A DNA stretch of 25,206 bases from a virus, in the IMG/VR virus record IMGVR_UViG_3300050123_000185, positions 1 through 25,206 of that record. One strand, written 5' to 3'. The notes under the pieces were generated by a model, which searched no databases, was not told the DNA's origin, and worked only from the letters and a program-made list of their open reading frames with translations. The position numbers and the translations under genes were made by a program. This document shows, in pieces, positions 1,531-25,206 of the stretch; positions within the stretch are counted from its first letter, which is position 1; the number at the start of each line of letters is the position of its first letter.

Positions 1531-1619
1531 ATGAGATTAAACTGATAATAGACGGTGGCTATAAAGATGAGCTGCATCAGCTGATAGAAAGGGAAACAGG
1601 AAAATTATCAACCAAGACT

Positions 1620-1985
1620 TTGTCTGAAGCCGAAGCTAATAAAGTTATTATCGTTTTAAAGGATATGATGAAGTATAAAAATCATATCGCACCTCTTAAA
1701 AAAGAAAAATCTTCTCCAGTAGAGGTACCCGGTATGGTAACGATCGGGCAGCAGAAAAAAATTTGGTACTTAATGTATCAAATTGAAAAGTGTGATAAAA
1801 CGAAAAGTAAAGCTTCCCTCGGAGATCGCCTTTGTGGTATAATAAAAAGACAATTACATATTGATGCCATATCACAGGCTCCTTTTAAATTCATTAACTT
1901 CAAAAATGGAAATCAGTTAATTGAAATTTTGAAGAAATATGTTGCGAGTGCCCAAGGAAAAGCACAAAGGAGTGATGTGAGTTGA
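1620..1985 (+). CDS. GemA-like regulator (DUF1018), 5'-truncated remnant
   Basis: The product resembles the gp16/GemA (DUF1018) family that sits between the early region and mor in Mu-like phages; its biochemical role is unclear. The C-terminal half (motifs MVTIGQQKKIWYLMYQI, SLGDRLCGIIK, then a NGNQLIEILKKYV helix) is typical of Firmicute members. The frame is open back to 1512, and codons from about 1563 (KDELHQLIERETG) also look like the family, but no ATG, GTG or TTG occurs before TTG 1620, and nothing resembling the usual first 20-30 residues is present. TTG 1620 has no convincing RBS. I therefore read it as a fragment whose 5' end was lost at the junction with the host kinase gene. Its TGA overlaps the TTG start of mor (TTGA), so it may still matter for translational coupling. 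Confidence 0.62.
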   Translation: MSEAEANKVIIVLKDMMKYKNHIAPLKKEKSSPVEVPGMVTIGQQKKIWYLMYQIEKCDKTKSKASLGDRLCGIIKRQLHIDAISQAPFKFINFKNGNQLIEILKKYVASAQGKAQRSDVS

Positions 1986-2302
1986 ACTTGCTCGAACAGA
2001 TTACACTTGACAGCCTTCCGGTCGAACAACGTGAGATTGCCAGTATTGTGGGGATTGAAGCTTATACAAAACTTGTTGAGCAATATGGCGGATGCAATAT
2101 ATATATTTTTAAAGCCGATACACTTCTTAAGGATTTACGAGACGCACAAATTAAAGATGAATTCGATGGCTATAATCATCGGGAACTTGCATTAAAATAT
2201 GATTTAAGCGAAAGGACAATAAGAGATATTGTCTCTGAAATTTCAAAGGGATTAAAAATCAAACAAATTGAAGGGCAAATAAATCTTTTTGATTTGCAAT
2301 AA
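1982..2302 (+). CDS. mor: Mor-family transcriptional activator
   Basis: A 106-aa DNA-binding protein of the Mor/C family, which in Mu activates the middle promoter as a dimer. Seen: an N-terminal part with the family-like stretch EAYTKLVEQYGGCNIYI, which corresponds to the dimerisation region, and a C-terminal helix-turn-helix at about residues 58-82 (YNHRELALKYDLSERTIRDI). Start is TTG 1982, overlapping the gemA stop by 4 nt, with AAAGGAG at 1966-1972 at good spacing. It is followed by a strong hairpin with a T run (2337-2388). In Firmicute Mu-like phages a single Mor usually serves both middle and late activation. Its target here would be expected upstream of the late genes, but I could not identify one with confidence. 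Confidence 0.85.
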   Translation: MNLLEQITLDSLPVEQREIASIVGIEAYTKLVEQYGGCNIYIFKADTLLKDLRDAQIKDEFDGYNHRELALKYDLSERTIRDIVSEISKGLKIKQIEGQINLFDLQ

Positions 2303-3063: not shown

Positions 3064-3606
3064 ATGAGTAATCAGAATAGAAAGCACAGTATAATTGATG
3101 CTTTGTCCCCAGAGCTTAAATGGACTGTTGAGCAAATGCTGCTTACAGGAAGCACATATAACGATATAGTTGATTATCTCGCCGTAAATGATATATCCAT
3201 TTCCATGGCAAGTATCTGCAGATATGCAAAAGCCTATAATGCGAATATCCAAATGCTAAATATCGCGCAGCAGAATTTTGCTCGCATGATGGAAGAGCTT
3301 GATAAGTATCCTGACCTTGACAGTACCGAGGCAATTATTCGGCTTACATCACAAAACGTCTTTAATGCCATTGCAAGCACCGAAGAGGAAGAATGGTCTA
3401 AAATTGATAAGGATAAATTGCTATCATCCGCTCTCGGTCTTGTGCGTGCAGCTGCATATAAGAAAAAAATAGACCTGCAGAATAAAAATGAGCTTGACAC
3501 CGGAATAGAAGCGATTAAATCTATGGCTTTCAAGGCAATGGCAAAAGAAAAGCCGGAACTTTTCAAAGAAGTTTCCGATTATCTTAATAATATGAGGGAT
3601 AAGTAA
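3064..3606 (+). CDS. DUF3486 / Mu gp27-like protein, putative small terminase-like
   Basis: A 180-aa, mostly helical protein of the DUF3486 family (Mu gp27), usually found directly before the large terminase and suspected to act in DNA recognition for packaging. Seen: an opening HSIIDALSPELKWTVEQMLL, then a helix-turn-helix-like segment (about residues 30-60, YNDIVDYLAVNDISISMAS) typical of these proteins, then long helices ending with a conserved-looking IEAIKSMAFKAMAKEKPELF. Start ATG 3064 has an AGGTGAT RBS at about 3055. It overlaps the next gene by one base (TAATG), so the two are probably translationally coupled. Confidence 0.75.
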   Translation: MSNQNRKHSIIDALSPELKWTVEQMLLTGSTYNDIVDYLAVNDISISMASICRYAKAYNANIQMLNIAQQNFARMMEELDKYPDLDSTEAIIRLTSQNVFNAIASTEEEEWSKIDKDKLLSSALGLVRAAAYKKKIDLQNKNELDTGIEAIKSMAFKAMAKEKPELFKEVSDYLNNMRDK

Positions 3607-4109
3607 TGAAATGCTATGTGCTGAAAGTTTTATCCGGTAATGAGATAAAAATTAGCAATAGGCTCCGGCAAGACGGTTTTACAGTTTATGTCCCTCGAGA
3701 AGACCGGCTTATAAGATCTCACGGTCATTGGATTAATCGCGAATATGTTTTATTTACCGGATATGTTTTTATTGATTTGGAATTTTCGGCAGTCTTATAT
3801 CATCAAATCAAAGGCATTATAGGGAATATAAATTTTCTTGAACTTCATGCCGGAAATCCTTCGGCTCTTACTGATCAGGAGCAAGATTACATACATATGA
3901 CATGTAAAACAGAAGAGCCTCTGGTCCCATCCATCGTTGAGATTATAAATAATAAACCTATACCGCTCTCGGGTATCCTTAAGGAGTTTAGCAATTCCGG
4001 AACTTTTATAAAATACAATATTCACAGATGCCAGGCATTTGTCTACATACCTTTTCTTAATGATTTTAAAAGATTGTCGTTCTCTTTCAAAATAGCAAAT
4101 AAAAGCTAA
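3606..4109 (+). CDS. NusG-like transcription antiterminator (LoaP/UpxY-type specialised paralogue)
   Basis: A 167-aa NusG-family protein that would bind RNA polymerase and change its pausing and termination. The NGN domain covers about residues 1-105: opening CYVLKVLSGNE (3-13), then VPREDRLIRSHGHW, YVLFTGYVFIDLE (47-59) and a KIR-like KGIIGNINFL. The C-terminal part (about 115-160) follows the KOW pattern (IPLSGILKEFSNSGTFIKYN, CQAFVYIPFL), though the usual glycines of the KOW turn are partly lost. Unlike housekeeping NusG it is phage-borne and sits immediately before a 219-nt non-coding leader and the head-tail operon, the arrangement expected for operon-specific paralogues such as LoaP and RfaH. 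It starts at ATG 3606 overlapping the gp27-like stop, with GAGGGA just upstream. Confidence 0.85.
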   Translation: MKCYVLKVLSGNEIKISNRLRQDGFTVYVPREDRLIRSHGHWINREYVLFTGYVFIDLEFSAVLYHQIKGIIGNINFLELHAGNPSALTDQEQDYIHMTCKTEEPLVPSIVEIINNKPIPLSGILKEFSNSGTFIKYNIHRCQAFVYIPFLNDFKRLSFSFKIANKS

Positions 4110-5907: not shown

Positions 5908-7434
5908 ATGTACATAACAGAATTAGATCTTTTAAAGCAAAAACTCAGTATCGAAGGCAAATTAAATATCAGTGAAATCATTAAGAATATCCTTAATGAT
6001 GCTGCCATTGAAGAACGCCGGATTTATATGAATGTTGGTGAGCGTTATTATGAAAATGGTCATGATATACTTTATCATGACTTTCGCTGCTCAACTATAT
6101 ATGATACGGTTGAGGATCCTGATAATTTCGGGCAAACAAAAGATGTTATAAATACAGTTACAAACAATAATAATTCCAATATGCATAATGTTCATAATTT
6201 TCATCAGTTGCAAGTTGACCAAAAAGTTAGTTATATAGCAGGCAAAGCTCCAACAATAAGCGTTGAAAATGATAAAGAATTTGAATCACTGTTAACAAAG
6301 CGCACAACTGATGAAGAATTTCCTGATCTTATATATGATTGGATCGAAGGCGCAAGCAATAAAGGTATTGAATGGATACATGTATATTATGATTTCAATG
6401 GTATTCTACAATATTGCATTGTTCCGGCACAAGAAGTGATTGCATTTTATGATTCTGAACATCAAAAAGAGCTTCAGGATATTGTAAGGTTTTATATGTT
6501 TGATGTTATAAGTAATGGCAAAACTGTTAAACGGCATAAAATCGAGTGGTGGGAAGTTGATAAAGTCACTTATTATATTGAGGATGAGCAGGGCAATTAC
6601 ATGCTTGATCCGTTATACCCTATAAACCCTATGCCGCACTGGTGGGATATTACTACCGTTGACAATATGGAACAAAGCAAAGTGCCGCAAACATGGGGGC
6701 GTGTACCTTTTATCCCTTTGCATAATAACAGTCATGACATAAGTGATCTTTTGCGAAATAAAAGCCTTATAGATGCCTATAACATGATATCATCAACAAG
6801 TACCAACAATCAGATTGATTTGGTTGAATTGTATTGGGTTATACATGGATATGGCGGAGAGACTGCAAAAGCGATTGCAAAAAAGCTGCAGATCAATAAA
6901 TCTGTAAGCATTAATAGTGAAGAAGGTTCTGTGACTGCCCAGCAAATAACTCTCAATGTTGAAGAGCGTGTTAAATGGCTGGAATTGTTAAGACACGATA
7001 TTTATCATTTTGGTATGGCCATTGACACAAGTGATGAGCAGCTCGGCAACAATCCTTCAGGCGTTTCATTAAAATTTAAATACACACAATTGGATTTAAA
7101 AGCCAATCCATTAATATTAAAACTTAAAAAGGCCTTAAAGGATCTATTTTGGTTTATTACAGTTGATATTAATCTTAAAAATAATGCCTCATATGATAGC
7201 AAAAAAATTGTTGTTGCTATTAATAAGTCAATGATAACCAATGACTTAGAGACGGTTAATATGATAAACGCCTCAAAAGGTCTTGTTCCCGATAATCTAT
7301 TGTTAGCAGCTCATCCACTTGTTGAGGATGCCAATCAAGCAGCAATAGATTTAAAGGCCCAGCAGGATGATTTAGATAAACGAAGAGCTAAGTTATTCGG
7401 AAATAATGATATTCCGCCTGGTGGTGAAGATTAA
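5908..7434 (+). CDS. Portal protein (SPP1 gp6-like)
   Basis: The 508-aa product would form the dodecameric portal at the special vertex, docking terminase and joining the tail. Its size and pattern match the SPP1 gp6/Phage_prot_Gp6 family: an early YENGHDILYHDF segment, LQVDQKVSYIAGKAPTI (about residues 108-124), YDWIEGASNKGIEW-HVYYDFNG (about 146-172), IVRFYMFD, WGRVPFIPLHNN (about 261-272), SLIDAYNMISS, and a DEQLGNNPSGVSLKFKYTQL stretch near residue 380-400 ahead of a long helix. Start ATG 5908 follows AGGTGA at about 5893. It overlaps the MuF gene by one base (TAATG), as is common for portal-MuF pairs. Confidence 0.88.
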   Translation: MYITELDLLKQKLSIEGKLNISEIIKNILNDAAIEERRIYMNVGERYYENGHDILYHDFRCSTIYDTVEDPDNFGQTKDVINTVTNNNNSNMHNVHNFHQLQVDQKVSYIAGKAPTISVENDKEFESLLTKRTTDEEFPDLIYDWIEGASNKGIEWIHVYYDFNGILQYCIVPAQEVIAFYDSEHQKELQDIVRFYMFDVISNGKTVKRHKIEWWEVDKVTYYIEDEQGNYMLDPLYPINPMPHWWDITTVDNMEQSKVPQTWGRVPFIPLHNNSHDISDLLRNKSLIDAYNMISSTSTNNQIDLVELYWVIHGYGGETAKAIAKKLQINKSVSINSEEGSVTAQQITLNVEERVKWLELLRHDIYHFGMAIDTSDEQLGNNPSGVSLKFKYTQLDLKANPLILKLKKALKDLFWFITVDINLKNNASYDSKKIVVAINKSMITNDLETVNMINASKGLVPDNLLLAAHPLVEDANQAAIDLKAQQDDLDKRRAKLFGNNDIPPGGED

Positions 7435-8999
7435 TGAATTCCAAGGATTATTGGGAAAAAAGGGCCCTGCAGCGTGAAAATAATACATATAATGAAACAT
7501 CTAAAACAATTGCACGGTTAAAGGTTATATATCAAAAAGCACTTAATCAATTGAATAAGGATTCCGATAGTATTTTTAAAAATTATGTAGGTAAATATGA
7601 TGGAGAAAAAGATGAAACATTAAAATACCTTACATCAAATGAATCTGCTGCTGTTTTGTCCGATTTAAGGAAAAGGGCAAGCCTTATAACTGATTCCGAC
7701 TTAAAAAAAGAGGTTTTAATAAGGCTTGAAGCGCCTGCTTATGGTTTCCGATTAAGCAGAGTAAAAGCAATGCAAAATTATATAATAGCTGAGCTTAATA
7801 AAATCTCCGATCAGGAAAATCAGATTGATGGCAATCACCTTGCAAATGTTTATGAAAATAGCTATTACCGAAATATATATGATACGGCACCACAAATCAA
7901 TGCAAGTTTTTCAATGATTTCCGCTCAGGTGATAAATGAAACTTTAAAAAGCAGCTGGTTGGGTGAAAATTATTCAGAGCGGGTATGGAAAAATACCCAT
8001 GTTTTAGCGCAAGAAGCAAGCGATATTATCCAAAGCGGAATCACATCCGGTAGAAGCATAAAGCAAATGCAGGATGAACTGGCCGATGTCATGGATGTTG
8101 GGAAATATGTTGCTGAGCGGTTAATCCGCACCGAAACCAATTATTTTCATAATCAGGCAGAAATGCAGTCTTATAAATCAATGGGTGTTGAGGAATATAT
8201 TTTCCTTGCCACACTTGACAGCCGTACATGCGCCAGATGCGGGGCATTGGATAAAAAAATATTCAAAGTCAGTGATATTATAGTTGGTGTAAATTATCCG
8301 CCGCTGCACCCTAATGATAGATGTGTAACAACTGCGAATGTAGAATCAGCGGGTAAAAGAATAGCCCGTGACCCAACCACAGGGCGCAATTATTATGTTG
8401 ACCATAATTTATCTTATACCGATTGGAAAAAACAGATTAATGAGAAATATGGTTCAAATACGTTAGAAAAAGCTCAAAAAATGTATTTCAATCGTAAATC
8501 TGATAAAGAAAATCTTGAAAAATATCAGGCGGTTTTAGGTAAGGATGCACCAAAAGCTCTGGCAGATTTTCAGAATATAAAGTATAGCAGTTCTGAAGAA
8601 TGGAAGAAAATTCAGCTTGATTACAGGCGCCGAAACAGATTAGTACAAAATTCTCGATTAGCGTTACCTAATGCCGAAAAAGCAAAGATTGATGAGCCTA
8701 AATTTACAAACTATTTTTTTGGCGGCAATAATAATGATGGACTTTCAAAGGGCATTGCATTTAACAGCCATTTAGGGTACAATATTAGCAACTGGAAAGA
8801 TTTCGAACAGGAAATATTAAGAAAATTGAAAGTTAATCCAGCAACACCTGACCGTATAACTGAGCACGGTTCATATTACAATCAATCAATGATTTTATAC
8901 GGCGTAAAAAATAACCCAATGGATATTAAATTTGTTTGGGAAGTAAAAAACGATATTACAAGGTTTGTAACAGCTTATCCCAATAGGAGTAGTGAATGA
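7434..8999 (+). CDS. MuF head morphogenesis protein with C-terminal toxin-like domain
   Basis: A 521-aa minor head protein. Residues about 1-180 are helical; the MuF core spans about 185-305, with ERLIRTETNYFHN (228-240), the Cys pair of SRTCARCG (263-270) and HPNDRC (292-297), which form the usual zinc motif. The remainder is not needed for a MuF protein: residues about 409-518 (PNAEKAKIDEPKFTNYFF, GIAFNSHLGYN, MILYG, a final RFVTAYP) resemble DUF6883/BECR-type toxin domains that are attached to MuF proteins in temperate phages and to polymorphic toxins. The immediately downstream 55-aa ORF fits a cognate immunity protein. MuF proteins are packaged in the head, so the domain could be injected with DNA (inference). 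Start ATG 7434 overlaps the portal stop. Confidence 0.85.
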   Translation: MNSKDYWEKRALQRENNTYNETSKTIARLKVIYQKALNQLNKDSDSIFKNYVGKYDGEKDETLKYLTSNESAAVLSDLRKRASLITDSDLKKEVLIRLEAPAYGFRLSRVKAMQNYIIAELNKISDQENQIDGNHLANVYENSYYRNIYDTAPQINASFSMISAQVINETLKSSWLGENYSERVWKNTHVLAQEASDIIQSGITSGRSIKQMQDELADVMDVGKYVAERLIRTETNYFHNQAEMQSYKSMGVEEYIFLATLDSRTCARCGALDKKIFKVSDIIVGVNYPPLHPNDRCVTTANVESAGKRIARDPTTGRNYYVDHNLSYTDWKKQINEKYGSNTLEKAQKMYFNRKSDKENLEKYQAVLGKDAPKALADFQNIKYSSSEEWKKIQLDYRRRNRLVQNSRLALPNAEKAKIDEPKFTNYFFGGNNNDGLSKGIAFNSHLGYNISNWKDFEQEILRKLKVNPATPDRITEHGSYYNQSMILYGVKNNPMDIKFVWEVKNDITRFVTAYPNRSSE

Positions 9000-9875: not shown

Positions 9876-10793
9876 ATGCCAATTAATACTTTAGCAATGG
9901 CAACTCTTTTTCAAACAGCTCTTGATAGGCAGATGATCGAGGGTGCAACATCCGGATGGATGGAGGACAATGCCGGTGAGGTTAAGTATTCCGGCGGCAA
10001 CACAGTGAAAATACCAAAAATCAGCATGGACGGGCTTGCCAACTATGATCGTGATTTAGGATATGTTCAGGGTGGGGTAACACTTGCTTATGGCACATAC
10101 ACCATGACACAGGACAGAGGCCGCAAGTTTCAACTTGATGCCATGGATGTTGACGAGAGTAATTTTGTTGCAACAGCAGGGAACGTCATGGGCGAATTTC
10201 AGCGTACTAAGGTTATTCCTGAGGTTGATGCATACCGTTACAGCAAACTTTCAGCACTGGCAATTGCAGCCGGAAACACAGGTATATATGTGCCTGCTGT
10301 CGGTACAATTTTGAACCAGCTTAAAACGGATCTTGTTACTATACAGGATGTAATTGGCGGCAGCGAATCTCTTGTAGTCACCATGAGCAGACTTGTATAT
10401 GCAATTCTTGCGCAGTCATCCCAGGTGACACGTTTCCTTGATGCGGTTAATTTTAAACAGGGTGACGTGAATCTTGAAGTTAAATCTATTGACGGAACCC
10501 CAATTATACCTGTTCCTTCAGCTCGCCTTAAAACTGCCTATGTTTTCAATGACGGCAAAACAACAGGTCAGACAGTCGGTGGATTTGTTCCTGCAAGCGG
10601 AGCTAAGCAGATCAACTACATCATATCGGCAAGGAAGGCGCCAATTGCTGTTTCTAAAACAGACACAATGAAGATATTTGACCCGATTACCAATCAAACT
10701 GCGCAGGCGTGGCTAATTGAATATCGCAAATTTCATGAGTTGTGGGTTGCGGACAACACTCTGACCGGCACGTTCGCATCCACAGCATCGTAA
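9876..10793 (+). CDS. Major capsid protein
   Basis: A 305-aa protein that should build the icosahedral shell. The pattern is that of HK97-fold capsids found after GP20 scaffolds in Firmicute phages: TVKIPKISMDGLANYDRDLGY (first 60 residues), YGTYTMTQDRGRKFQLDAMDVDES (about 73-96), VIPEVDAYRYSKLS (about 114-127), an internal VTMSRLVYAIL segment, and a C-terminal IISARKAPIAVSKTDTMKIFDP. ATG 9876 is 14 nt after the scaffold stop with AAGGAG at 9860-9865. No cysteine-based crosslinking or protease gene is seen nearby, so assembly probably depends on the scaffold alone. Confidence 0.87.
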   Translation: MPINTLAMATLFQTALDRQMIEGATSGWMEDNAGEVKYSGGNTVKIPKISMDGLANYDRDLGYVQGGVTLAYGTYTMTQDRGRKFQLDAMDVDESNFVATAGNVMGEFQRTKVIPEVDAYRYSKLSALAIAAGNTGIYVPAVGTILNQLKTDLVTIQDVIGGSESLVVTMSRLVYAILAQSSQVTRFLDAVNFKQGDVNLEVKSIDGTPIIPVPSARLKTAYVFNDGKTTGQTVGGFVPASGAKQINYIISARKAPIAVSKTDTMKIFDPITNQTAQAWLIEYRKFHELWVADNTLTGTFASTAS

Positions 10794-23390: not shown

Positions 23391-24152
23391 ATGAATAGTT
23401 TTATTCCATGGATTGGCGGCAAAAAATTATTAAGAAAAACAATAGTTTCTTATTTTCCTGATGAAGATGAAATAGATCGTTATATTGAAGTCTTTGGTGG
23501 AGCGGCATGGGTTCTTTTTTATAAAGATAAACATGCAGATTTTGAAATATACAATGACATAAATAGCAATTTGGTAAATCTTTTTAGATGTATAAAATAT
23601 CATTATCAGGAGCTTCAAAGGGAGCTTAATTGGGTTTTAAATTCACGTGAAATGTTTGATGATATAAGAAATATTGAGGAAACAAAAGGGCTTACTGATA
23701 TACAAAGAGCTGCTCGGTATTTTACACTTATTAAAATTTCATTTGGTGCTGACAGAAGATCTTATGGTTGCAGTAAAAGAAGTCTTTTAAACTCTGTTAG
23801 TTACTTGTCTGCTATTCATGAGAGACTTGACAGAGTAATTATTGAAAATAAAAGCTATGATGCTTTATTAAAAGCATACGACAGACCCAAAGCATTATTT
23901 TATTTAGATCCTCCTTATCATGGCACCGAAAAATACTATGATGATGTTTTTACTGAGCAAAATCATGTTAAATTGAGAAATTGTCTTAAAAAAATAAAAG
24001 GAAAATTTTTATTGTCTTATAATGATGATGAGTATATAAGAAATCTATATAAAAGCTTTAATATAATCGAGCTTAGTCGTCAAAAAAATTTAACTGGAAA
24101 AACAAAAAGCCCCGATAATATTTACCGAGAATTATTAATTAAAAACTTTTAA
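23391..24152 (+). CDS. Orphan DNA adenine methyltransferase (D12 class / Dam-like)
   Basis: A 253-aa N6-adenine methyltransferase using S-adenosylmethionine. Motifs: FIPWIGGKKLL (residues 4-14, motif X), VFGGAAWVLF (motif I, about 34-43), a YNDIN acidic motif II (about 53-57), and the catalytic motif IV LDPPYHG (about 179-185), then LSYND and a terminal REL (family pattern). No partner restriction enzyme is nearby, so it is an orphan phage enzyme: protection of phage DNA from host restriction is the usual idea. ATG 23391 is preceded by AAAGGAAG (23377-23384); the frame runs upstream into the hairpin, but the earlier starts lack an RBS. Confidence 0.87.
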   Translation: MNSFIPWIGGKKLLRKTIVSYFPDEDEIDRYIEVFGGAAWVLFYKDKHADFEIYNDINSNLVNLFRCIKYHYQELQRELNWVLNSREMFDDIRNIEETKGLTDIQRAARYFTLIKISFGADRRSYGCSKRSLLNSVSYLSAIHERLDRVIIENKSYDALLKAYDRPKALFYLDPPYHGTEKYYDDVFTEQNHVKLRNCLKKIKGKFLLSYNDDEYIRNLYKSFNIIELSRQKNLTGKTKSPDNIYRELLIKNF

Positions 24153-24195: not shown

Positions 24196-24234
24196 TCTAA
24201 CAAAATTACACTTAAAATTTATAATAGTGTTAGA
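24196..24234 (+). promoter_or_regulatory. Promoter with flanking inverted repeat (candidate operator) of the XRE gene
   Basis: TATAAT at 24220-24225, 17-nt spacer, CTAACA at 24197-24202 (4 of 6 matches to TTGACA). The exact inverted repeat TCTAACA (24196-24202) / TGTTAGA (24228-24234) overlaps the -35 and the start region, as expected for autorepression by the HTH protein encoded just downstream. No other function is seen in the 107-nt gap 24153-24259. Confidence 0.5.
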
Positions 24235-24259
24235 ATATCTCCAAAAGGGGGATTTTCTA

Positions 24260-24466
24260 ATGATTAGAATTTATTTGTCAAAATTATTAGGTGAAAAAAG
24301 AATAAATCAAGCAGAATTGGCACGCAAAACAGGCATTAGACCTACCACTATTAATGAGATGTACCACGAATTGATTGAAAGAGTTAATCTTGAACATTTG
24401 GATAAAATATGTGAGGCATTAGACTGTAAATTATCAGATCTTATTGAGTACATACCTAAAAAATAA
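24260..24466 (+). CDS. Small XRE-family (Cro/C1) transcriptional regulator
   Basis: A 68-aa protein that is almost only a helix-turn-helix domain: IRIYLSKLLGEKRINQAELARKTGI (recognition region RPTTINEMY, about residues 27-35), then LEHLDKICEALDCKLSDLIEYIP. It matches short XRE regulators (HTH_26) frequent in Firmicute phages. ATG 24260 has AAAAGGGGGA at 24243-24252. It has its own promoter with an inverted repeat and ends in the dyad 24461-24514, so it is a separate unit at the right end. In a phage without its repressor gene on the left, it may be a moron regulator; it is not in the expected repressor location. Confidence 0.78.
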   Translation: MIRIYLSKLLGEKRINQAELARKTGIRPTTINEMYHELIERVNLEHLDKICEALDCKLSDLIEYIPKK

Positions 24467-24514
24467 AACTACTTTTAAAGGCTTTTTAAAGTTTCTTTAA
24501 AAGTAGTTTTATTT
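24461..24514. terminator. Bidirectional terminator: 20-bp perfect inverted repeat
   Basis: 24461-24480 is exactly complementary to 24495-24514 (core ACTACTTTTAAAG / CTTTAAAAGTAGT), loop of 14 nt. TTTTATTTA on the right and AAATAAAA on the left give T-rich tails in both directions. It lies between the XRE gene and the convergent minus-strand host fragment, and contains the stop of the latter. Three CTTT(T)AAA cores (24472-24503) recall the tandem repeat at 4220-4250. Confidence 0.7.
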
Positions 24515-25206
24515 ATTAGATTTTTTGCAAATAGTGCGCAAATTTTTTGCAGTTTATCCGCAAAGCAACAATCGCCCCAGTATTTTTTAATTGTCATGTT
24601 TTTATTTTGACCATCAAAGATTAAATTTTCAAAATAGATATGATCTTTGCTAATGTTATATCGATTAATCGTACCAGTATTCGGATCATCTATTCTTGCA
24701 TTTTTAGTAATAGTTGTCATTGGTTCGCCATTAGAATCACGATTCAAGCCGACTAGAGACAGATTAACTTTTGAAAAGCGATCATATGCATCCGAATTAC
24801 TGTCATTATAAGTTCCGTCATCAAAGAAAACAGTTGAATTGTCTGTGAAAAAACTGCTAGCAGCGTTGATATCGCTACCATAATATACGCCTTTCAGCGG
24901 ATAAGATTTTCCCTGATACGATATTGATGTTAGTGTTGAATTTGCTGATACATTTGTGATAAGATAATACTTTGGCGATCCGTCAGAAAAGGTATTTGTT
25001 GGAGCCGCATAGGATGTTGAAGACTCCGTTGATACATCAAATGCTCCGCTGACCAGAGGCTGTTTCACACTTGTATTCACATCAGCGGAAGCTGACGCGA
25101 ATACAGGGATTGAAGTGAATACCATTAGTAACGCTAAAATACATGATATCGACTTCATTTTGCGTTTCTTCGTACGAGTGAAAAAATCTGCTTCGTCCTT
25201 GTTCAT
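24475..25206 (-). pseudogene. Secreted protein gene interrupted by the prophage right end (5' fragment)
   Basis: The visible frame gives 243 residues from the window edge: a charged start, a signal peptide (MKSISCILALLMVFTSIPVFA, residues about 17-37, cleavage near ASA), a Ser/Thr-rich stretch, then a beta-rich domain (YLITNVSANSTLTSISY, SSFFTDNSTVFFDDGTY, FENLIFDGQNKNMTI) typical of right-handed beta-helix/pectate-lyase-like wall or polysaccharide proteins. From residue 210 (W, codon TGG at 24579-24577) the codons come from the phage end; the Lys/Asn-rich tail (34 residues) is unlike the rest. The remaining part of the gene is not in this window. The real start may be ATG codon 17 or outside. 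Confidence 0.7.
24521..24564. repeat. Two abutting 22-bp direct repeats: candidate transposase-binding sites of the right end
   Basis: 24521-24542 and 24543-24564 both begin TTTTTTGCA and end CGCAAA; 16 of 22 positions agree, and there is no gap between them. In Mu-type phages the transposase binds 22-bp sites, of which R1 and R2 are adjacent near the right end. A CA dinucleotide stands 15 bp outside (24578-24579), equal to the TG-start required at the ends when read inward. This identifies the likely attR. Confidence 0.68.

Follow-up and report, generated by a model that had tools for sequence, protein, structure and literature searches.

Transposable phages with TG-CA ends are already known in Firmicutes (Toussaint 2013 via PMC5883640; PMC8705779). 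In Mu the sites R1 and R2 at the end are bound by MuA; the joining of the two synapsed ends takes four MuA molecules and has a 5-bp stagger (PMC3362531). Replication by transposition, with a 5-bp repeat, has been shown experimentally for the Faecalibacterium phage FP_Mushu (MG711460) (PMC5883640). The deposited genomes of Mushu and of the Bacillus phage BalMu-1 (NC_030945) end in TGTAGC and that of Mu ends in TGAAGC, each being followed by the same tandem plan. The ends of Firmicute Mu-like phages, which a sequence-only reading of the present DNA had called poorly described, are known at least in part: BalMu-1 and Mushu were deposited from their true ends, and the 5-bp repeat of Mushu has been published (PMC5883640).

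The window, i.e. the whole 25,206-nt stretch that was analysed, is a virus record whose two limits coincide with gene boundaries; it was cut there and not at the true phage ends. Its relevant features are the following.

1-1530: xylulokinase gene, directly before gemA
1531-1565, no strand: approximate xylulokinase-gemA junction; left end and early genes missing
1566-1985, plus strand: gemA, 5'-truncated (PF06252)
1982-2302, plus strand: Mor/C late transcription activator (PF08765, phrog_836)
3064-3606, plus strand: Mu Gp27-like protein, small terminase (PF11985, phrog_426)
3606-4109: gene of the NusG family (transcription antiterminator by phrog), flanked by the Gp27-like gene and the large terminase
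7434-8999: head protein of the MuF type, in which residues 411-517 form a C-terminal DUF6883 domain
23391-24152, plus strand: Dam-type adenine methyltransferase (phrog_56)
24227-24466, plus strand: HTH_26 (Cro/C1-type) regulator (PF13443), rightmost phage gene, in the same position in relatives
24464-24511, plus strand: strong hairpin, probable terminator, between the last phage gene (HTH) and R2 (-18.7 kcal/mol, z -5.0)
24521-24542, minus strand: R2, putative inner 22-bp transposase-binding site, nt 29-50 from the terminus, in tandem with R1
24543-24564, minus strand: R1, putative terminal 22-bp transposase-binding site, nt 7-28 from the terminus
24565-24570, minus strand: terminal hexamer GCAACA (TGTTGC inward), the predicted phage terminus lying after base 24570
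24571-24575, no strand: predicted 5-bp target-site duplication ATCGC, host side, deduced from relatives
24571-25206, minus strand: host secreted-protein gene with a signal-peptide-like N terminus, apparently interrupted by the prophage

The window shares with Mu the genes for GemA, Mor and Gp27, all three identified by Pfam profiles (PF06252, PF08765, PF11985). Profile matches also reveal a head module with an SPP1-type portal, Terminase_3 and MuF. The right side carries the series lysin, DUF2829, holin, Dam and HTH_26, in which the names lysin, DUF2829 and holin are our reading of the ORFs and the other module names are profile matches. No match to MuA or MuB, as a complete autonomous Mu-like phage would have, was found in the window, and the copy appears to be a truncated prophage rather than a complete phage. 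At its left side the GemA profile match begins at residue 19 of the frame, with no ATG, GTG or TTG before it, and GC content drops from 0.48 to 0.35 at the xylulokinase-gemA joint; the best match of the xylulokinase among 394 genomes of the order is 58%. Either a chromosomal deletion truncated the prophage on the left, or the contig is chimeric. A metagenomic chimera, in which a real right end is joined to unrelated xylulokinase DNA, is in our judgement somewhat improbable: the unequal GC of the flanks (0.48 left, 0.37 right) and the cut in the middle of gemA speak for it, but prophage decay through deletion is common. Such a chimera would touch the left side alone, and our reading of the right end does not depend on it.

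At the right end of the window the repeat region reads TTTTTTGCA...CGCAAAGCAACA. R2 is TTTTTTGCAAATAGTGCGCAAA (24521-24542) and R1 is TTTTTTGCAGTTTATCCGCAAA (24543-24564); the two are contiguous and gapless and match the motif TTTTTTGCA-N7-CGCAAA exactly, while other partial matches to this motif in the window have three mismatches each and none is better. The sequence-only reading had described two gapless 22-bp direct repeats with 16 identical positions. They are indeed gapless and in tandem, and the count is about as claimed, 17/22 in the best register. Identity of at least 16/22 at an offset of 22 occurs at the R1/R2 positions only in the whole 25-kb window, and the observed repeat identity was attained in 0.3% of trials with a shuffled 400-bp stretch. 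The R1/R2 tandem is genuine and non-random, and it is placed as in relatives, Mu, BalMu-1 and Mushu. As in a Mu-type right end, a TG lies at the host junction (CA outward) and two contiguous 22-bp direct sites begin about 6-7 bp from the end.

The right end of Mu (R1-R2-R3) likewise has a TG terminus and contiguous 22-bp direct repeats R1 and R2 (nt 6-27 and 28-49). However, its terminal hexamer is TGAAGC and that of the window TGTTGC, R1 of the window lies about one base further in, and the site sequences differ. Mu also has an inverted third site near nt 56, which our scan recovered; the same scan found no R3 at the right end of the window.

Alignment of the Dam protein led to 80 loci, nearly all in Clostridia and other Firmicutes, with Dam identities of 53-65% in the relatives. 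In the 44 loci with an HTH gene after Dam, a tandem was sought within 400 bp downstream. A 22-bp period with at least 16/22 identity followed the HTH gene in 23 of the 44, whereas control periods from 14 to 30 other than 22 gave 0-1 of 44 loci each. When the tandem was counted per genome together with a TGTWG(C/T)-type terminus, a MuA-family transposase was found in 28/31 genomes with the tandem versus 7/41 without it (Fisher p = 3e-10). Many tandem-bearing genomes have MuA and dam on one contig, ~31 kb apart. The MuA proteins of two viral-contig relatives and of BalMu-1 contain DDE_2 and Mu-transpos_C, and the Mu I-gamma DNA-binding domain was detected in two of these three.

As a general query the motif TTTTTTGCA-N7-CGCAAA, which had been recommended for this purpose, turned out to be lineage-specific. 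An exact scan of IMG/VR for its tandem form gave no match and its relaxed core matched two contigs, of which the one checked (the contig of L011) is a relative. The features common to the ends of the relatives, the TGTWG terminus and the 22-bp period, appear to be the better search rule. The holin as query found no relatives. The head module, queried through the terminase as a route to Mu-like relatives, gave many matches with no sign of Mu control genes and was abandoned. A Mu-like contig (G007) carries the segment TTTGACATTCTTTAGTGAGGA near both ends in the same orientation (L029, about 10375-10425; L133, left part) and has no clear 22-bp tandem.

To locate the terminus, the window was compared with L011 and 31 genome loci as well as with Mu, BalMu-1 and Mushu. 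All 33 aligned prophage right ends (the window, L011 and the 31 genome loci) run inward from TGTWG(C/T), with R1 from about nt 7 and R2 near nt 29. The relatives' ends were chosen partly by the hexamer rule GC[AT]ACA, and the independent check is provided by the duplications and the deposited phage ends. R1 is ~6 bp from the terminus in the relatives, BalMu-1 and Mushu, and in the window the distance is likewise 6 bp. L011, which was found via the HTH protein, has the same Dam-HTH genes and, behind them, an end that aligns at 81% with window positions 24519-24571. Beyond the phage end it runs into a GlgD-like host gene, whose interrupted frame stays in alignment with intact GlgD proteins until roughly where the rule puts the phage end.

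Of 15 prophages inspected on the left as well as the right, 11 have perfect 5-bp target duplications that abut the predicted terminus. The search took the 5 bp beyond the right terminus and looked for them before a TGT near MuA, where the chance expectation of a match is about 0.1 per prophage. At each of the 11 matching left ends there is an L1 site, inverted and in the same register. What had been asked of an intact left end, a TG start and a copy of the repeat with a 5-bp duplication, was thus found in these relatives, the window itself being without a left end. G029 and G018 have a left-end candidate with no matching duplication, and no recognisable left end was seen in the stretch examined in G023 and G013. 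In G029 (L203/L267) and G018 (L194/L270) the flanking 5 bp differ from those on the right side, perhaps through rearrangement after insertion.

Because the ends of the relatives, their duplications and the deposited phage ends set the TGTWG(C/T) rule, the phage is placed as ending at 24570, and the end proposed from the sequence alone, exactly at a CA/TG, lies 9 bp too far out. There is indeed a CA at 24578-24579, 15 bp beyond the second repeat, and the host frame is open on either side, as an end at this CA with the duplication GTATT would have it. Such an end is nevertheless very unlikely. In the relatives, BalMu-1 and Mushu the terminus lies ~6 bp past R1 in the same register, not 15; the 11 perfect duplications adjoin that terminus instead; and the host frame in L011 aligns with intact homologues to about the point that the TGTWG rule predicts. 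We rejected the CA as terminus on the alignment of the relatives' ends and their duplications. With the terminus at 24570, the CA and GTATT are host DNA, and the expected duplication is ATCGC (24571-24575) instead of GTATT. We infer this duplication from the relatives; its left-hand copy would lie outside the window, from which the left junction is absent.

The same terminus means that the host frame turns foreign at 24570/24571. Of the earlier suggestion that a secreted host protein is interrupted at the CA/TG, the interrupted secreted-protein ORF stands and the point of the switch moves. A Pfam search of the minus-strand ORF 24571-25206 gave no match. One homologue was found in 391 genomes of the class (L277) and none in 300 genomes of the family of G011. 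It has a frame of 430 residues and is 42% identical over residues 38-204. The homologue's frame continues well past the junction, which indicates that the host secreted-protein gene is interrupted, but at 42% identity it does not allow the joint to be placed with single-base precision. The proposed comparison with an empty-site strain yielded only this homologue.

Could the tandem instead regulate the HTH gene, as an operator or a terminator element? It does adjoin a Cro/C1-type gene and a terminator hairpin; an inverted repeat is also seen in some relatives at the hairpin position between the HTH gene and R2. Yet the tandem keeps a fixed distance from the host junction and tracks with MuA, the same site recurs as the inverted L1 at the far left end as placed by the duplication, >30 kb from the HTH gene, and in BalMu-1 and Mushu the tandem stands at an end for which no Dam-HTH pair is annotated. 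We give an operator or terminator function hardly any credence. What the comparison demonstrates is the architecture of the end, its conservation, the terminus rule and the 5-bp duplications of the relatives. It is highly probable, on comparative grounds, that 24521-24570 is the right terminus (R1-R2) of a transposable, Mu-like prophage in a host of the Clostridia, with sites and terminus as listed. The original proposal, that a Mu-like prophage of a Firmicute has here its right end, of the Mu type and bound by a transposase, is supported by the relatives' ends, the association with MuA and the duplications.

Inward from 24570 this right terminus would comprise TGTTGC, R1 (nt 7-28), R2 (nt 29-50) and the terminator hairpin, followed by the HTH and Dam genes. 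By analogy with Mu, we infer that a MuA-family DDE transposase binds R1 and R2, nicks 3' of the terminal CA and inserts the end into target DNA at positions staggered by 5 bp. The insertion would have left the predicted duplication ATCGC (24571-24575) inside the secreted-protein gene. Having neither left end nor transposase any more, the window copy would depend for its movement on a transposase and a partner left end provided from elsewhere.

A second left-end sequence resembling a transposase site, in inverted orientation, was found at about nt 127-136 from the left terminus in five of the 11 prophages scanned (G011, G012, G014, G015 and G030), while secondary left-end hits in Mu in the same scan, the strongest included, run in the L1 direction. 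The scan matrices were built from three sites each, and the inverted second site is a lead rather than a finding. The chances are just short of even that Clostridia Mu-like phages keep the tandem R1-R2 right end of Mu but differ at the left end (L1 at the tip and an inverted second site). Such a left end, if true, could mean another geometry of transpososome assembly.

A TGTWG(C/T) tip with a 22-bp tandem, together with an inverted L1 and the 5-bp duplication at the opposite end, gives base-exact ends in Clostridia Mu-like prophages. With exact ends, insertions can be tested against empty sites, the host genes around them can be annotated correctly, and mini-Mu tools can be made for gut Clostridia.

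Among described phages, BalMu-1 resembles the window in its tandem 22-bp sites from nt 7 (18/22 alike) behind a TGTAGC terminus, although the site sequence differs. Its gene order is repressor-A-B...GemA-Mor-Gp27-head, and its MuA is the nearest described one (about 32% to the MuA of the relative G004). Unlike the window, it has contractile tail genes, a diversity-generating retroelement and an endolysin at its right end, and lacks the Dam-HTH pair. FP_Mushu shares a 22-bp tandem (15/22) with a TGTAGC terminus, but has a distant transposase (22% to the MuA of the relatives) and other genes at the right end. The nearest complete genomic relative by end sequence is a prophage of Ruminococcaceae bacterium HV4-5-B5C (L216/G011), with the end TGTTGC followed by TTTGCGAATAAAATACAAAAAA/TTTGCACACAAAATACAAAAAA, the order DUF2829-Dam-HTH, MuA 32 kb away and the duplication GCGCA. 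It is complete with left end and transposase, whereas the window copy is left-truncated. The type of end is already known from Mu and from Mu-like phages of gut bacteria; what is new here is that the coordinates are corrected and that the end signature applies more generally.
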